Origin: Fibrobacter sp. UWH6
GTDB lineage: Bacteria > Fibrobacterota > Fibrobacteria > Fibrobacterales > Fibrobacteraceae
Assembly (NCBI RefSeq): GCF_900142465.1
Contig: NZ_FRAX01000025.1
Location: 1 to 40,725, forward strand
Length of the DNA: 40,725 nucleotides
Direction: 5' to 3'
Positions 28,582-36,683 of this stretch are shown in pieces (the stretch's first letter is position 1; the number at the start of each line of letters is the position of its first letter). The translations under genes and the position numbers were made by a program. Below the pieces are notes generated by a model. The model made no database searches. It saw only the letters and a program-made list of their open reading frames with translations, and was not told where the DNA came from.

Positions 28582-30327
28582 ATGAGTTTAAAGAGAATCC
28601 TTAATTTTATTTGTGTTGCAGTTGCCGCGGAATGTGCCGCGGTAAGTTCTGCCTTTGCTGAAAACTCTGCCCTGGCGTTGCAGGATTTGAAGTATAGTGA
28701 TTCTAGAAAGTCTCTGAATAATCCTGGCAGAGGCTGGTATCGTACCCAGGGATTGCGCCTTAAGGAATCCGACAATAAGGCTGTTGGAATTTCTCAGCCT
28801 TTGACTCATTTACGTGTGGACATTTCCGCCTTTTCCGAAAAGGGCTTACAATCCATTGATTCTAGCAAGACTCCCCGCGATACGATTTACGGTGTTTCCA
28901 AACCTTTGACAGACGACGCTTTGGCGGCTCTTAATTCCACTTTTGCGAATGCTAGAGAAAAAGGCAATAAGGTCATTGTCCGTACATCCTACGATATTGA
29001 TGGTCGCGGAAAACAGGATCCTCCTCAGAAAATAATTCTCGGCCATATAAAGCAGTTGGCCGAAGTTTATGGAAAGAATTCGGATGTCATTACCTATGTG
29101 GAACTTGGAATGTATGGCAGCTGGGGCGAACAGCATACCAGTAACAATGGCAGCAATGCAGAAATCGCAGAAGCCCTGCAGACCATGATTGTGAATACCC
29201 CGTCATCCATTAAGGTGGGCGTGCGTCGTCCAGATATTGTTGCTTATTGGCTGGGCGTGCAAAGTGAAACTCGAGATGACGCTGGCAACATTACCAAGGT
29301 TGGCTACGAAAATTTTGATATCAATTCCGATGTGTTCAAGGCTGCGGTAAAAGCAAAGGGTGATACCATCTATCGTGTGGGCATGTACAACGATGGCTAT
29401 TTGGGAAGCACCACGGATTTGGGCACAGTGGCCATGGGCAATCCAAAGCTTACTCGCGAAATGATGGTTTCCTGGTTGGAACAATATTCTTTGAATACGC
29501 CTTATGGTGGTGAAATGGTGGCGAATTACAATGGCGACCATCCCATGAATACGGCACGCTACTTAAGCTATGAAGGTTTCCGAACCCATACAAGCTATTT
29601 GAATTGGGAATGGCATTACGAAACAATCCAGAACATGAAGGACTCCATTCTCGGTCCTGAATTTGGAAAGGGATTTCGTGCACCCGATTCCGAATATGTT
29701 GGTGCAACTGCTTATAAGTATGTAGAAGATCATCTAGGTTATCGCTTTGTTCTGCGAGAATCCTGGTTGCCGGATTCTTTGTATGACGACACTTTGTTCC
29801 GAGCAAAGTTCAAAATTCAGAATGTGGGCTTTGGAAATCTGACGAAATCTGCGTCTGCAAAACTTGTGTTTATCGAGGATGTAGATCCGTGTGATGTGTG
29901 CCCGGCTGCATACGAGATGGATATCAGTGATGTTTTTGACTTGCGAAAAGTTTATGGACGCTCCATTGTTGTTGATGGCTCTGATACAACTTTGACCTTT
30001 GATGGAATGAATGAATTTACCATTGAAGGAAAAAGCTCTCGAGGCAAGTACGATGTCGTCTTGCAAGTCGAAGGGATTTCCTTTGCCAATGTGAACGAAT
30101 CCATCTTTATGTGCGAAAAATCTGTGGATGGGTTATACTTGGGCAAAACCTATGTTCGTCCAAAGGATATTCGAGGACCGACTTCTCTCGGGATAAAAAA
30201 TCTTCATCAGAGCAACACTCGCAATAACCAGCCGATGGTTTTCCGCAACGGTTATCAAATCAAAGTTCGTGGTGGCGAGTTGCATGGTGGTAAGACATTC
30301 CAGGTGAATGGAAAAGCCGTGAAATAA
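28582..30327 (+). CDS. Exported DUF4874/DUF4832-type protein with basic terminal module
   Basis: 581 residues from the ATG that gives a signal peptide (SLKRILNFICVAVAAECAAVSSAFA). The N-terminal half begins NNPGRGWYR and runs like the DUF4874 barrel domain, with LRVDISAFSEKG, VELGMYGSWGEQH, and VGVRRPDIVAYWLG. The second half (from about YRFVLRESWLPD, then FKIQNVGFGNLTKSASAKLVF) is a beta domain typical of DUF4832. The last 40 residues (NNQPMVFRNGYQIKVRGGE) are a basic module shared with the next protein. No enzyme activity is established for these domains to my knowledge. The barrel with conserved Trp, Glu and Asp and its neighbours suggest a glycoside-active or sugar-binding role. It lies 35 bases before the GH44-type gene, so the two are probably an operon. 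Confidence 0.8.
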   Translation: MSLKRILNFICVAVAAECAAVSSAFAENSALALQDLKYSDSRKSLNNPGRGWYRTQGLRLKESDNKAVGISQPLTHLRVDISAFSEKGLQSIDSSKTPRDTIYGVSKPLTDDALAALNSTFANAREKGNKVIVRTSYDIDGRGKQDPPQKIILGHIKQLAEVYGKNSDVITYVELGMYGSWGEQHTSNNGSNAEIAEALQTMIVNTPSSIKVGVRRPDIVAYWLGVQSETRDDAGNITKVGYENFDINSDVFKAAVKAKGDTIYRVGMYNDGYLGSTTDLGTVAMGNPKLTREMMVSWLEQYSLNTPYGGEMVANYNGDHPMNTARYLSYEGFRTHTSYLNWEWHYETIQNMKDSILGPEFGKGFRAPDSEYVGATAYKYVEDHLGYRFVLRESWLPDSLYDDTLFRAKFKIQNVGFGNLTKSASAKLVFIEDVDPCDVCPAAYEMDISDVFDLRKVYGRSIVVDGSDTTLTFDGMNEFTIEGKSSRGKYDVVLQVEGISFANVNESIFMCEKSVDGLYLGKTYVRPKDIRGPTSLGIKNLHQSNTRNNQPMVFRNGYQIKVRGGELHGGKTFQVNGKAVK

Positions 30328-30362: not shown

Positions 30363-32183
30363 ATGAAAAAGTTGTTTGGGTTTGCGGGAAGTTTGGTTCC
30401 TGCGCTTTCTCTGGTGGCGTTCCTCGGAACTTCTGCCCAGGCGGAGATTTCTGTAATGGTGGATGCGTCCGCCGGCGTCAAGAAAATTTCCCCTTACCTC
30501 TATGGCCGAAACATTGACAAGGTCAGCGCCGATAGCGCCCGCCTCAGCGATGAAGACCAAACTTCCATCAAGACGATGAACGAAGCCGGCATTCGTTTTA
30601 TTCGTGCAAACTACGGCAACAATTCTACCCGCTACAACTGGCGAAAAAAGTTGACCGTTCATCCGGACTGGTACAACAACGTGAATGCCGTGGACTGGGA
30701 CATTACCGCCAAGAAGATTCTGGACAACATGCCTCAAGCAGATGCCATGTATGCTTTCCAGCTGACAGGTTATGCGGCCGCCACCAACGAATACAACTTT
30801 GCAGATTGGACTTTCTACAAGGCTCATAACGATACCTGGGCCAAGGCAACCCTTGACTTGGCTGGCGGTGGCGAAGTTGCCGACGATGGAGAGACTCTCA
30901 TCAAGGCTGGTGATTACAGCTTGTATTGCGAGCCTTGGCCCGCCGATTCCACTGTTGGAATTATTGACCACTGGGCAAAAGAATTGAAGTACGACATGTC
31001 CAGACTCCAGTATTGGAGCATGGACAATGAAATGGAAATCTGGAACGGCACCCACGGAGATTTGCCGCTGGATATGGATCCGGATTTCTTGGTGGAACGC
31101 TATGTTGACGTGGCCAAGAAGGCCCGCACCGTTTGGCCCGAAATCAAGTTGACGGGTCCTGTGGTTGCAAACGAATGGCAGTGGTGTACTACGGGTGCGT
31201 CTGAAGGCAAGTCTGGCCTAGGCAAAGGCGAAGACCGTAATTATTGCTGGCTTGAATACTTTATCAAGCGCCTTGCCGAAGAACAGAAAAAGTCTGGCGT
31301 CCGTATGCTTGACGTGTTTGACATGCACTGGTATCCCTCGGAAAAGACTTACGCAGAACGTGTCAATTGGCACCGAGTTTTCTTTGATACCACCTACAAT
31401 TATTCTGGTGCTAATGGTATTAAGTTGGTCAGCGGCAAGTGGGATAACAACCAGACCAAGGAATATATTTTCGAACGTGTGAATGGTTGGCTGGATCAGT
31501 ATTTCGGTAAAGGTCACGGCATTACCTTGGGCCTTACCGAAACTTCCATTATTGACGAGAAAGATCCCATGACCACGGCGATTTCATATGCATCCTGGCT
31601 TGGAACCTTTATGGATCACGGTGTGGAAATTTTCACTCCCTGGACATGGGGCGATGGCATGTACGAAGTGCTGCACCTCTTTAGTCGCTATAACGGGGAA
31701 TTCCGAGTGCAGTCTGAATCCAGCAACGATTCTTTGCTTTCAGCCTATTCCTCTGTAAGCAACGCAAGAGATTCCATGACGGTGATTCTTGTGAACCGCG
31801 CAGAAAAGGATGCACAAAGCGTGACCTTGAATGTGAAGGGCTTGAAGAATGTGGGTGCTTCTGCAGAAACTTTGACATTGGCTGGAATCAGCGGTGAAAC
31901 TTTCGTTTCTCACGAAAGCAATGCATTGAAGAAGGGCGCTGCAACTGTTGATGTTGCTGCTGGTACAGTGGCTCTCGAAGTGCCGGCAAAATCCATTGTG
32001 GCGGTTCGCTTGACTGCTGATGCGGGCGAAGTGATTGAGGCTATTGCAAAACCCATTGTGCGGAACGATCGTCGCCACAATAACCAGCCTATGATTTTCC
32101 GCGATGATTACCAAATCAAGGTTCGTGGCGGTGAACACTTCGACAATAAAATTTTCCGTGTGAATGGAAAAGTGGTGAAGTAA
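30363..32183 (+). CDS. Glycoside hydrolase family 44-type endoglucanase with basic terminal module
   Basis: 606 residues with signal peptide ending FLGTSAQA at 27. The (beta/alpha)8 domain starts ISPYLYGRNIDK. It carries the GH44 pattern YWSMDNEMEIWNGTH with probable proton donor Glu223, LLDVFD-like MLDVFDMHWYP (315-325), and LGLTETS with probable nucleophile Glu393. A beta-sandwich (about 430-560) follows as in known GH44 enzymes. The last 40 residues repeat the basic module of the upstream protein. GH44 enzymes cut beta-1,4-glucan backbones, often xyloglucan or carboxymethylcellulose, with retention. The family call rests on motif order; GH39 or GH51 relatives are less likely. Confidence 0.82.
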   Translation: MKKLFGFAGSLVPALSLVAFLGTSAQAEISVMVDASAGVKKISPYLYGRNIDKVSADSARLSDEDQTSIKTMNEAGIRFIRANYGNNSTRYNWRKKLTVHPDWYNNVNAVDWDITAKKILDNMPQADAMYAFQLTGYAAATNEYNFADWTFYKAHNDTWAKATLDLAGGGEVADDGETLIKAGDYSLYCEPWPADSTVGIIDHWAKELKYDMSRLQYWSMDNEMEIWNGTHGDLPLDMDPDFLVERYVDVAKKARTVWPEIKLTGPVVANEWQWCTTGASEGKSGLGKGEDRNYCWLEYFIKRLAEEQKKSGVRMLDVFDMHWYPSEKTYAERVNWHRVFFDTTYNYSGANGIKLVSGKWDNNQTKEYIFERVNGWLDQYFGKGHGITLGLTETSIIDEKDPMTTAISYASWLGTFMDHGVEIFTPWTWGDGMYEVLHLFSRYNGEFRVQSESSNDSLLSAYSSVSNARDSMTVILVNRAEKDAQSVTLNVKGLKNVGASAETLTLAGISGETFVSHESNALKKGAATVDVAAGTVALEVPAKSIVAVRLTADAGEVIEAIAKPIVRNDRRHNNQPMIFRDDYQIKVRGGEHFDNKIFRVNGKVVK

Positions 32184-32300: not shown

Positions 32301-32948
32301 TTAGCCGTTGACCATCTTTACGAACTGGCGGCAGACTTCTTCGGGATTGGGTTTGCCGAAGATGGCGGAACCGACTACGAAGACGTTGGCGCCAGCTTCC
32401 TTGCAGGCGAGGATGTTGTCCAGTTTGACGCCACCATCGATCTGGATATCCAGTTCCGGCTTCATCTGGCGAAGCTCGCGGATCTTGTCCAGGCAATAGG
32501 GAATGAGGCTCTGGCCGCCGAAACCCGGATTCACGGACATGACGAGGACCATGTCAACGATGTCCAGCACATGCTTGATGTTAGAAAGCGGGGTTGCGGG
32601 GTTGATGGCCACAGCGGGCTTTACGCCAAGTTCTGCAATCTGGTGCAGCAAGCGGTCCAGATGGTTAGTGGTTTCGGCGTGGACGCTAATGAGGTGTGCG
32701 CCGGCCTTAGCAAATTCAGCCACGTAGTTTTCGGGGTTGGCAATCATCAGGTGGCAATCCAGGGGGAGGCTGGTGCCCTTCTTGACGCAGGCGGAAATGC
32801 CCGGGCCAAAGCTGATGTTGGGGACGAAATGACCGTCCATGATATCCAGGTGAACGAGGCCTGCGCCGCCGTTTTCGATAGCCTTGAGGCCGTTACCCAG
32901 TTCCAAAAAGTTTGCGTTCAAGACGCTGGGTGCGATGATCTGTTTCAT
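32301..32948 (-). CDS. rpe: Ribulose-phosphate 3-epimerase
   Basis: 215 residues from the ATG giving MKQIIAPSVLNANFLELG; a longer frame reaches upstream but adds unrelated sequence. The TIM-barrel landmarks are VHLDIMDGHFVPNISFGP with metal ligands His33 and Asp35, LDCHLMI (His66), SVNPGFGGQ and IDGGV. The enzyme interconverts ribulose 5-phosphate and xylulose 5-phosphate in the pentose phosphate pathway. It is the only minus-strand gene in this central region, convergent with the GH44-type gene and divergent from the Lys/Ala-CBM48 gene. The common SADF is NANF here. No clear ribosome site precedes it. Confidence 0.95.
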   Translation of the reverse strand: MKQIIAPSVLNANFLELGNGLKAIENGGAGLVHLDIMDGHFVPNISFGPGISACVKKGTSLPLDCHLMIANPENYVAEFAKAGAHLISVHAETTNHLDRLLHQIAELGVKPAVAINPATPLSNIKHVLDIVDMVLVMSVNPGFGGQSLIPYCLDKIRELRQMKPELDIQIDGGVKLDNILACKEAGANVFVVGSAIFGKPNPEEVCRQFVKMVNG

Positions 32949-33085
32949 GAATTGCAAGTTAGAAATTTTGCCAAGGACTCGCAAGACCATGTAACGGCTT
33001 GGCATGGAATTTGCAAACAAACATTAGACGGATAAATTACATTTTACTATCTTTACGCTTAAATAAAAACCAAGGAGAAAATAAA

Positions 33086-33592
33086 ATGTCTAAAGGTACT
33101 AAGACCGTAGTTGCAAAGCCGGCTGCCAAGAAGGCTGCTGCTAAACCCGCTGCAAAGGCTGCCACCAAGGCCGCAAAGCCCGCCGAAAAGAAGCCCGCTG
33201 TAAAGGCCGAAGAAAAGGTTGTTGCTAAGAAGGCTCCTGCAAAGGCTGCCGCTAAGCCTGCAGCAAAGGCTGCTACTAAGGTTGCAAAGCCCGCTGCCGA
33301 AAAGAAGACTGTTGCCAAGGCCGCTCCCAAGGCTCCCGCCAAGGCTGCAAAGAAGTCTGCCGCTCCCAAGAAGGTTACTCAGGAAGTCGTTGCTGACTGT
33401 CCGCTTGCTACCACCGTTTCTATCGCAGGTACCTTCAACAACTGGATGGTTGATGTGGACATGCTGAAGAAGGACAAGAAGACTGGTCTCTGGAAGATCA
33501 AGCTGGAACTTGTTCCGGGCGATTATGAATACAAGTTTGTTTGCGACGGTGAAAACTGGGACGTAGGCGACAACAAGATCATGCACGTTTAA
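33086..33592 (+). CDS. Histone H1-like Lys/Ala/Pro tail fused to a CBM48/AMPK-type glycogen-binding domain
   Basis: 168 residues; AAGGAG is 7 bases before the ATG. Residues 1-96 are almost only Lys, Ala, Pro, Val, Thr and Glu, like the C-terminal tails of histone H1 and bacterial H1-like proteins. They contain an internal duplication (AAAKPAAKAATK at 17 and at 54). Residues about 97-168 form an E-set carbohydrate-binding fold of the AMPK-beta/CBM48 type: VSIAGTFNNWM with Trp120, GLWKIKLELVPGDYEYKFVCDG, then Trp158. Such modules bind glycogen or starch, or sit before GH13 domains, but here there is no catalytic domain. There is no signal peptide, so it should be cytoplasmic. Strong codon bias suggests abundance. 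Function is unknown; a glycogen-surface or nucleic acid-linked role is inference. Confidence 0.85.
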   Translation: MSKGTKTVVAKPAAKKAAAKPAAKAATKAAKPAEKKPAVKAEEKVVAKKAPAKAAAKPAAKAATKVAKPAAEKKTVAKAAPKAPAKAAKKSAAPKKVTQEVVADCPLATTVSIAGTFNNWMVDVDMLKKDKKTGLWKIKLELVPGDYEYKFVCDGENWDVGDNKIMHV

Positions 33593-33620
33593 TTTGCTGA
33601 TTTTACAAATTGCGTTTGAG

Positions 33621-33655
33621 AAGGTTCCTCTAAGGAGGGGCCTTTTCATTTTTAG
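33621..33655 (+). terminator. Rho-independent terminator after the Lys/Ala-CBM48 gene
   Basis: AAGGTTCCTC (33621-33630) pairs with GAGGGGCCTT (33635-33644), with two wobbles, around TAAG, followed by a T-rich run. Confidence 0.82.
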
Positions 33656-33767: not shown

Positions 33768-36683
33768 GTGAAGGGAATGAAGTTCTTTTTTGCGGGATTT
33801 TTGGGCGCGTTGGCTCTGAATCTTGGGGCTTGCGGCTCTGACGATAAAAGTTCCACGGCTCCGATGGATGAATTGTCATCGGGTTCTGAAGATTATTTGT
33901 TTTCGTCAGGTGAGGAAAATTCTAACGGTTTAGTTTCCGGTTCTTCAGATTCGTCGGTTGATTCGTTGGCGGGAACATCTTCAAATTCCTTGACAAGTTC
34001 CGCAGAGGACTTGTCGGCAGGTTCCGCGACGGACCCTACGGCAGACACGGTTGTTGCGCTGAAAAATCCTCCGGTCATCTTTACCGAAGTGGACCTTGTG
34101 AATTTGTCTTACAAGGATGAAGAAGGTGGTGACGCCGGTTGGGTGGAAGTTTATAATCCAGCAGATACGGCGGTAAACCTGAAGGGTTATTATCTGACCA
34201 ACTCCAAGGCGGAACAGACCAAGTTCCAGTTTGGCAATGTGGTAGTTCAGCCAAAGTCCCACATGATTGTTTACCTGTCTGGGAGAAACTTGCCGGACTA
34301 TGTGGCGCCCCATGATACTGTCAATCTTTTGAGTTCCTATTGTGAAGGGGAAACGGATGCGGTAAATTATCCTGGTCGTGGTGCCAGCGAAATAAAACCT
34401 TTGGATGGTGCGTCCGATTTTTGCTTTGTGGAAAACGGAGTGAATAGGGCCGGCGCCCAGATGATTCCCGTGAAGTCGTCCCTGGGTTATTACGTTTTGT
34501 CATTGACCATCGGCTCGACGAACGAGGGTAAGGTTCCTGTGGATCTTTCCAAGGCAAATCAGTTTCAGCTGAAAGCTTATATCCCCAAGGATCACGAAGT
34601 CTACTTCAAGATTTTGCAGAAGGGTTTCCGCGAAATTAAAAGCTGGAACAAGATGCTGGTGGGAACGGGAGATTCCAACACGGTTTATTCCATTAGGCCG
34701 CCTCTCCATTCCGACTATCCTAACCTGGCTGAAATTACTGGCCTTCGCCTGGACAAGGATTATCACGATTCTCTTGCTACAGATATTAAGGTTTTCAGTT
34801 ATATCGCCTATGGCCGCGGATACGAACCTCACGCCAATTTCAAGTCCAAGAAGGATGGTGGTTCTCTCTATTTGTTCAATGGCGAAAAACAGCTTGTGGA
34901 TTCCGTGATGTATCCGGCGGCTGTTATCGGAAAAACTTGGTCCCGAGAAATTGCGGCAGTTAATGGTGTGGTCGCCGGCGCAGTTACCAGTACCTCCGCG
35001 AAGTGGGGCTTCGCAAATGCAACGCCTTATGGTGAAACTGTAGGCGCTGTGGAAAATGCTCCCCAAACTGTGAAAACAGAATTCCCTAACTCCGGTTTTT
35101 ATTCTGCGCCATTCTCTATTGCCTTTGGAACTGATGATGAAATCCGCTGCGAAAAGGGCGGTACTGTTCCCACAGCAACGAGCCCGCTGATGGTTACTAG
35201 TTTGAAGATTGATACCACCACGGTTTTGCGCTGTGCTACTTTTGAAAACGGTGCTGTTCCTGGTAACGTCATTAACCGCACTTATGTTTTTGAAGACCAG
35301 CCTACGGTCGCTTCCGTATTTATTACTGGCGATCCGCTGCAGATGTTCCATGCCGATTCCGGCTTGTTCATGAATGAAAATTTCTGGGGCGACAAGGAAA
35401 TTCCTGTGAACATTGAATTGCTGGAAGCCGGTCAAAAGGTGAGCGGCTTCAGCGAGAACGCAGGTCTTGCCATTAGCGGTAACGCCACCCGAACTTGGGC
35501 GAAGAAATCTGTGGAAATTACCTTCCGCGAAAAGTACGGAAAGAATAAACTGGATTATGTGCTGTTCCCGGAATTTCCCGACTTGAAAAAATTCAAGAGC
35601 TTCAAACTGCGCAACAACGGAAACAACTATCACTTTGATTACATCCGCGATATGTTGGCTTCCTCCATTACGGAAGGCCTGGGCATTGATTATCAGCATG
35701 GCCGCGCCTCCATTGTTTTCTATAACGGGGAATACTACGGCATTCATAACATTCGCGAATCCTCCAACAAGAATTATTACCTGGCCAAGTACAATCTGGA
35801 CGGGGACCAGGTGGACATCTTGAATAGTTCCGCTGAATCTATCACAGGCTCCCCGGTGGATTTCATTGCGTTGACCAACTTCTTGCTTACTAAGACCATG
35901 ACTGATGAAGATGTGGCCACTGTGAATGAGCAGATGGATTTGAACAATTTCATCAACTACTATGCTGCAGAAATATTTGCAAACAATCGCGACTGGCCCG
36001 GCAACAATCGCAAGGTTTGGCGTGGGAGTAGCCCCAAGACTCCCTGGAAGTGGTTCATGTACGATACGGATATGGCCTTTGACAACTCCCAGACTGATAA
36101 ACAGGAAAACTTGAAGGGCAATATTTTTGAATTCGTGACTGCCGCAAATTCTGGCTGGCCCAACAATCCTGAATTCACTCAGCACTTGCGCATGTTGCTG
36201 AAGAATGAAAATTTCAAGGCCGCGTTCATCAACCAGATAGCCGCCATTCTTTGCATGAACTTTAGCGCAGAACGTGTGGTGGCCCGCATGGAAAAATTGA
36301 ATGGAGCCATCACCGCCGAAGTGTCCCGCGATCAAAAACGCTGGAGCAAGAACGTGGCTACTATGACGGAACATGAAGGCAGAATCAAGACCTTCGCCAC
36401 CACCCGCCAGGATGTGGTCCGCAAGGAAATGAAGGAACATTTTGCCTTGGGCGAAATGGTGGACGTGACTCTTGCAAGTTCTGGCAATGGCAATGTGCAG
36501 GTTCATTACTTGCCGTTGGATAAATCCTCACTGAAGATCAAGTTCTTCAAGGGTACGCCCGTGACGCTTACTGCTGTGCCGAAGGATGGCGGAATATTCA
36601 TAGGCTGGAGTGATGGCGTCAAGGACGCAACTCGCACCATTGATCCTGAAGACGGCTTGAAGATAACTGCGAACTTTAAGTAG
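33768..36683 (+). CDS. CotH-kinase family lipoprotein with lamin-tail and InlB-repeat-like domains
   Basis: 971 residues from GTG 33768, chosen because GGAGA (33758-33762) is 5 bases upstream; ATG 33777 has no usable ribosome site and GTG 33750 is also open. Lipobox LNLGAC. A Ser-rich linker is followed by a lamin-tail-like domain (VIFTEVDLVNLSYKDEEGG, GWVEVYNPADTAVNLKGYYL), then a chitobiase-C-terminal-like beta domain. The CotH domain carries FKSFKLRNNGNNY, YYGIHNIRESSNKNYY, FANNRDWPGNN and the metal-binding YDTDMAF. The end (FFKGTPVTLTAVPKDGGIFIGWSDG) resembles InlB-type beta repeats. CotH proteins are secreted atypical protein kinases in Bacillus spores and occur in cellulolytic bacteria. 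The target here is unknown. Confidence 0.85.
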   Translation: MKGMKFFFAGFLGALALNLGACGSDDKSSTAPMDELSSGSEDYLFSSGEENSNGLVSGSSDSSVDSLAGTSSNSLTSSAEDLSAGSATDPTADTVVALKNPPVIFTEVDLVNLSYKDEEGGDAGWVEVYNPADTAVNLKGYYLTNSKAEQTKFQFGNVVVQPKSHMIVYLSGRNLPDYVAPHDTVNLLSSYCEGETDAVNYPGRGASEIKPLDGASDFCFVENGVNRAGAQMIPVKSSLGYYVLSLTIGSTNEGKVPVDLSKANQFQLKAYIPKDHEVYFKILQKGFREIKSWNKMLVGTGDSNTVYSIRPPLHSDYPNLAEITGLRLDKDYHDSLATDIKVFSYIAYGRGYEPHANFKSKKDGGSLYLFNGEKQLVDSVMYPAAVIGKTWSREIAAVNGVVAGAVTSTSAKWGFANATPYGETVGAVENAPQTVKTEFPNSGFYSAPFSIAFGTDDEIRCEKGGTVPTATSPLMVTSLKIDTTTVLRCATFENGAVPGNVINRTYVFEDQPTVASVFITGDPLQMFHADSGLFMNENFWGDKEIPVNIELLEAGQKVSGFSENAGLAISGNATRTWAKKSVEITFREKYGKNKLDYVLFPEFPDLKKFKSFKLRNNGNNYHFDYIRDMLASSITEGLGIDYQHGRASIVFYNGEYYGIHNIRESSNKNYYLAKYNLDGDQVDILNSSAESITGSPVDFIALTNFLLTKTMTDEDVATVNEQMDLNNFINYYAAEIFANNRDWPGNNRKVWRGSSPKTPWKWFMYDTDMAFDNSQTDKQENLKGNIFEFVTAANSGWPNNPEFTQHLRMLLKNENFKAAFINQIAAILCMNFSAERVVARMEKLNGAITAEVSRDQKRWSKNVATMTEHEGRIKTFATTRQDVVRKEMKEHFALGEMVDVTLASSGNGNVQVHYLPLDKSSLKIKFFKGTPVTLTAVPKDGGIFIGWSDGVKDATRTIDPEDGLKITANFK

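Follow-up and report, generated by a model that had tools for sequence, protein, structure and literature searches.

A protein of 168 amino acids encoded by Fibrobacter sp. UWH6 joins a tail rich in lysine, alanine, and proline to a module of the CBM48 domain family. By analogy with PhaF, PhaM, and AlgP, we propose that it may act as a two-handed cytosolic adaptor that tethers glycogen to the nucleoid. Binding to glycogen and to DNA is inferred, as is the tethering itself, and we regard the proposal as evenly poised between right and wrong.

The fusion gene and its surroundings

The window, meaning the whole stretch of DNA analysed (40,725 nucleotides), comprises positions 1–40,725 of contig NZ_FRAX01000025.1 (C25), forward strand, in assembly GCF_900142465.1; the genome size is 3.92 Mb. 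The main features are:

32301–32948, minus strand: rpe (ribulose-phosphate 3-epimerase), divergent neighbour (TIGR01163, E = 3e-81, above cut-off)
33073–33078, plus strand: Shine-Dalgarno-like site AAGGAG, read directly; a GGAG-type site also precedes the start in relatives
33086–33592, plus strand: tail-CBM48 fusion gene, ATG at 33086, TAA at 33590–33592, 168 aa (orthologs, codon bias)
33086–33373, plus strand: Lys-Ala-Pro tail resembling those of histone H1, AlgP, and PhaF, residues 1–96 (composition, predicted disorder)
33104–33235, plus strand: internal tail duplication, copy 1, about residues 7–50 (self-alignment)
33215–33346, plus strand: internal tail duplication, copy 2, about residues 44–87, partly overlapping copy 1 (self-alignment)
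33374–33589, plus strand: CBM48/AMPK-beta-type module, residues 97–168 (Pfam, phmmer, alignments, AF2 model, structural matches)
33617–33648, plus strand: terminator-like hairpin of 14 pairs with a T-rich tail, 3′ of the fusion gene (sequence)

The terminator-like hairpin makes it likely that the fusion gene is monocistronic. Divergent rpe lies beside it in 90 of 112 loci, family f2 included (some loci are repeats of one genome). Codon bias is like that of ribosomal genes (CAI of 0.73 for the whole gene and 0.83 for its CBM part, against 0.62–0.81 for ribosomal genes), which suggests, on codon usage alone, that the protein is abundant. An artefact of frame or composition was ruled out by the ribosome-binding site, purifying selection, and conservation of the gene. 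A secreted protein was ruled out by inspection, the product having no hydrophobic leader or signal-peptide-like start. PADLOC gave no match to a defence system.

Other genes in the window have features of their own. The CotH kinase protein encoded downstream of the fusion gene at 33777–36680 resembles a lipoprotein and also has a lamin-tail domain (Pfam CotH, E = 3.5e-34; LTD, 2.8e-11). A DUF4874/DUF4832 protein (28582–30324) and a GH44-like protein (30363–32180) have in common a basic C-terminal segment of ~35 residues, NNQPM.FR..YQIKVRGGE...F.VNGK.VK, which is perhaps a secretion or sorting tail.

A CBM48 module with conserved sugar-site residues

Residues 97–168 match the Pfam profiles AMPK1_CBM (E = 1.7e-9; 38.2 bits, cut-off 26.8) and CBM_48 (E = 1.3e-6; 29.1 bits, cut-off 22.4), and phmmer with the module matches AMPK-beta2 and SEX4. 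Pfam finds no enzyme domain in the protein, in agreement with the sequence-only reading from which this work started. That reading had also proposed comparing the predicted structure of these residues with AMPK-beta, and the comparison gives the CBM48/AMPK-beta fold. In an AlphaFold2 (AF2) model built on an alignment with 33 relatives, residues 91–168 form a beta-sandwich (pLDDT blocks of 86–95), and the best structural match of the module is the AMPK-beta1 glycogen-binding domain (1z0m; Z 10.9, 1.6 Å, 68 residues). Further matches, after AMPK-beta, are to SEX4 and to other CBM48 and CBM20 domains.

The conserved tryptophans noted earlier are borne out across genera, with W120 invariant, like K150 and N163, and W158 near-invariant (at least 90%). 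In the window protein W120, K150, W158, and N163 are the counterparts of AMPK W100, K126, W133, and N150, as read by eye from alignments. A loop of ~13 residues, which in AMPK carries Leu146/Thr148, is lost in Fibrobacter and kept in related genera, and affinity may be lower because of this loss. The module was originally described as complete, which holds for its core fold and fails for this loop. AMPK-beta holds cyclodextrin via Trp100, Trp133, Lys126, and Asn150 (PMC9788615), and in plant PTST mutation of two matching Trp residues abolishes starch binding (PMC4339375).

Profile, predicted fold, and sugar-contact residues together place the protein in the CBM48 domain family, from which binding of glycogen or maltodextrin is inferred. 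The dN/dS ratio of the CBM is about 0.04–0.15 against the window copy, with a median of 0.12 over 836 pairs; judged by these ratios, the module is under purifying selection.

A basic tail of constant composition

The first 96 residues contain 37 Ala, 29 Lys, 10 Pro, and 4 Glu, with no Arg, Asp, or aromatic residues, a net charge of +25, and 4 copies of KPAA. This count confirms the 96-residue Lys/Ala/Pro tail of the original description. The internal duplication reported there also withstands scrutiny: ~44 residues (about 7–50 versus 44–87) align with each other at a score of 123, which none of 500 composition-preserving shuffles reached (maximum 97), and at the DNA level the 19-residue cores of the two copies share 79% identity. 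In the AF2 model the tail has pLDDT of about 50 and no secondary structure, and is predicted to be disordered.

Among genus-level relatives, 49 distinct tails range in length from 35 to 106 aa and are all of one composition; pooled, they contain 1003 Lys versus 1 Arg and no aromatic residues. Their net charge runs from +9 to +27, and reaches +37 in L114, a relative from another genus. Since 11 genera of 3 families retain the fusion even as the tail drifts in sequence and length, selection appears to act on tail composition. Cysteine pairs (ACAKACAK, TCATKKTC) occur in the tails of L043, L045, L029, and others, and are absent from that of the window protein.

No linker-histone or Hc1 profile matches the protein at E up to 1 (Pfam), and on this evidence its resemblance to histone H1/Hc1 is compositional only. 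A search of the same genome for other proteins with such a tail found none at E up to 10, with the caveat that the composition correction of BLAST may hide some.

Distribution in Fibrobacterota and beyond

The sequence-only reading had suggested searching for the fusion across Fibrobacterota, and it is found throughout the Fibrobacteraceae and in two further families. In a first sample the protein was present in 34 of 36 congeners, the two genomes without a match being 77% and 80% complete; in a second, AMPK1_CBM was matched in all 66 Fibrobacteraceae. Every copy read (11 genera, 3 families) has a basic, Lys-rich N-terminal tail, these copies being drawn from all nine sampled Fibrobacteraceae genera and from two genomes each of families f2 and f4. 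In two genomes of the distant family f7 (L121, L127), a divergent CBM48 is followed by a C-terminal Ala/Lys/Pro/Thr tail; this placement suggests, from sequence comparison, that module and tail were paired independently, by separate origin or by a move. Naked CBM48 proteins occur in other families (L097, L098). Outside the phylum, none of 13 loci (L070–L082) has a long Lys/Ala tail, in a single scan of a genome collection with shallow sampling. No published description of the tail-CBM48 architecture was found in the literature searched.

Other CBM48 arrangements were also seen in the phylum. At L088:1710-2435 (family f5) the module lies behind a long amphipathic helical region of apolipoprotein/phasin type (Pfam Apolipoprotein E, 3.5e-4, below cut-off), making this a possible glycogen coat protein. 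In L133, L138, L139, and L141 (families f9, f10, and f13), and likewise in L087 (f5), a Cys-rich N-terminus and a transmembrane stretch precede a C-terminal CBM48. The Cys-rich part of the first four (C...HxxxCxxC) is zf-HC2/anti-sigma-like by eye. Pfam gives no anti-sigma match for these membrane proteins, which are possibly envelope glucan-sensing anti-sigma factors.

Glycogen genes in the genome

The Fibrobacter lineage is known for heavy glycogen storage. The genome carries glgC (C7), a Glyco_transf_5/glgA-type gene (C14), and glgB (C20), and its only CBM_48 matches are GlgB and the fusion protein. The fusion gene lies apart from the glg genes, and many genomes without it, such as those of family f3, have glgC, so the fusion is not required for glycogen synthesis. 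Because almost all members of the phylum carry glgC, co-occurrence of the fusion with glycogen synthesis is uninformative. In family f3 (G039, G041, G043–G050) glgC is present, the fusion absent, and a Glyco_transf_5 match mostly absent; these organisms may lack glycogen or may synthesise it by a different pathway. Strain S85 expresses two glycogen synthases and the phosphorylase at high levels in every condition tested (PMC6204037). The main text of papers on S85 expression and on its genome does not mention the fusion gene.

A role in PHA storage or as a phasin was ruled out, with no PhaC_N match to a PHA synthase in the genome and no Pfam phasin match to the protein at E up to 1.

A proposed tether between glycogen and the nucleoid

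In the proposed mechanism, the C-terminal CBM48 module would hold on to alpha-glucan chains exposed on the surface of glycogen inside the cell. The poly-Lys/Ala/Pro tail, predicted to be disordered, would bind nucleic acid, chiefly chromosomal DNA, non-specifically and by charge. Many copies of the protein per glycogen particle would hold the particle to the nucleoid, and tethered particles would stay dispersed and be shared between daughters rather than collect at a pole. Tethering in vivo and any benefit from it remain inferences. A csrA mutant of E. coli accumulates its glycogen at the old pole, which keeps the chromosome out of that region (PMC4836754). In AlgP and PhaF, KPAA-type tails attach to DNA and determine where granules lie (PMC9239181, PMC3574117, PMC13052382). 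Glycogen genes without a PHA synthase match, a tail of PhaF/AlgP type, and the polar glycogen of the csrA mutant together make a tether the best reading.

The architecture of storage granule-nucleoid tethers, a storage-polymer module and a Lys/Ala/Pro tail in one protein, is met here, with polymer binding inferred. PhaF of Pseudomonas and PhaM of Cupriavidus, which link PHA granules to the nucleoid, likewise combine a polymer-binding domain with an H1-like tail, and a role in granule position and partition has been proposed for them as for the fusion protein. Their polymer binder, however, is an amphipathic phasin helix rather than a CBM48 for alpha-glucan, and the fusion protein has its tail at the N-terminus and no phasin homology. 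AlgP of Pseudomonas aeruginosa, involved in the spacing of polyphosphate granules, has a similar disordered KPAA-rich tail and combines DNA binding with a place on a storage granule, as is inferred for the fusion protein; AlgP differs in its helical N-terminal domain and in acting on polyphosphate. The AMPK-beta glycogen-binding domain has the fold and core sugar-site residues of the fusion module, but the fusion protein has no kinase-complex domain and, in this genus, lacks the Leu146/Thr148 loop. Plant PTST and mammalian STBD1 are, like the fusion protein, non-catalytic adaptors that bind alpha-glucan, but PTST binds starch synthase through another region, STBD1 has a CBM20 and an ER membrane anchor, and neither has been described with a DNA-type tail.

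Alternatively, the protein may be a glycogen coat or clustering factor, whose charged tails would organise particles (for example as rosette-shaped alpha particles) or keep them soluble, DNA being irrelevant. Such rosettes are reported in F. succinogenes (PMC8116748), the protein is predicted from codon bias to be abundant, and the f5 relative L088 has coat-type, apolipoprotein-like helices with its CBM48 in place of a Lys tail. We nevertheless consider this unlikely, though not negligible, in that like-charged tails would repel neighbouring copies in the absence of a polyanion, and the Lys/Ala/Pro tails of characterised granule proteins are thought to act via DNA.

The tail may instead bind another polyanion, linking glycogen to RNA and ribosomes or to polyphosphate and placing it near them. 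Poly-Lys tails are not selective, and it is a point against the tether that this one could equally bind RNA, ribosomes, or polyphosphate. AlgP is found with polyphosphate granules (PMC9239181), but Pfam detects no RNA-binding module in the fusion protein and DNA is the established partner of the PhaF and PhaM tails, and we see little probability in such a link. A targeting scaffold of the PTST or AMPK-beta kind, in which the tail would recruit a specific partner such as an acidic glycogen enzyme to glycogen, has a precedent in the delivery of GBSS to starch by PTST via a CBM48 without a catalytic domain (PMC4339375). It too appears improbable, as the tail has no conserved motif beyond composition and drifts in length (35–106 aa) and order while its composition stays constant, unlike a specific docking site. 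That the tail is a mere disordered spacer or solubility extension with no binding role would fit its several-fold variation in length and the tailless CBM48 proteins L097 and L098, but is very hard to reconcile with a net charge that stays strongly positive (+9 to +27) among genus-level relatives and with a similar tail at the opposite end of the protein in family f7.

The roles first suggested, coating glycogen, tying it to nucleoid or RNA, or acting as a scaffold, thus narrow to a PhaF/AlgP-like tether as the most likely, with binding still inferred. More tentatively, and with confidence somewhat short of an even balance, the protein may be the first tether dedicated to linking glycogen and nucleoid in a bacterium. 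It would be abundant, would distribute glycogen along the chromosome and so between the daughters at division, and would have evolved in parallel with PhaF, PhaM, and AlgP, possibly twice within Fibrobacterota.

Significance

The placement and inheritance of glycogen in bacteria have hardly been studied. A 2021 review states that there are no studies of glycogen-associated proteins in prokaryotes (PMC8116748), and a 2025 review on organelle positioning leaves glycogen unmentioned (PMC13052382). The fusion protein provides a concrete, conserved candidate for which clear mutants suggest themselves, namely deletion of the tail and changes at W120/W158. The only storage materials for which tethering to the chromosome has been described to date are granules of bioplastic and of polyphosphate. 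By profile the fusion protein is neither a phasin nor a histone, yet by analogy it would work like PhaF, PhaM, and AlgP. If this is true, the principle of a polymer binder joined to an H1-type tail would no longer be confined to bioplastic and polyphosphate but would also cover glycogen, which very many bacteria use as a carbon store.
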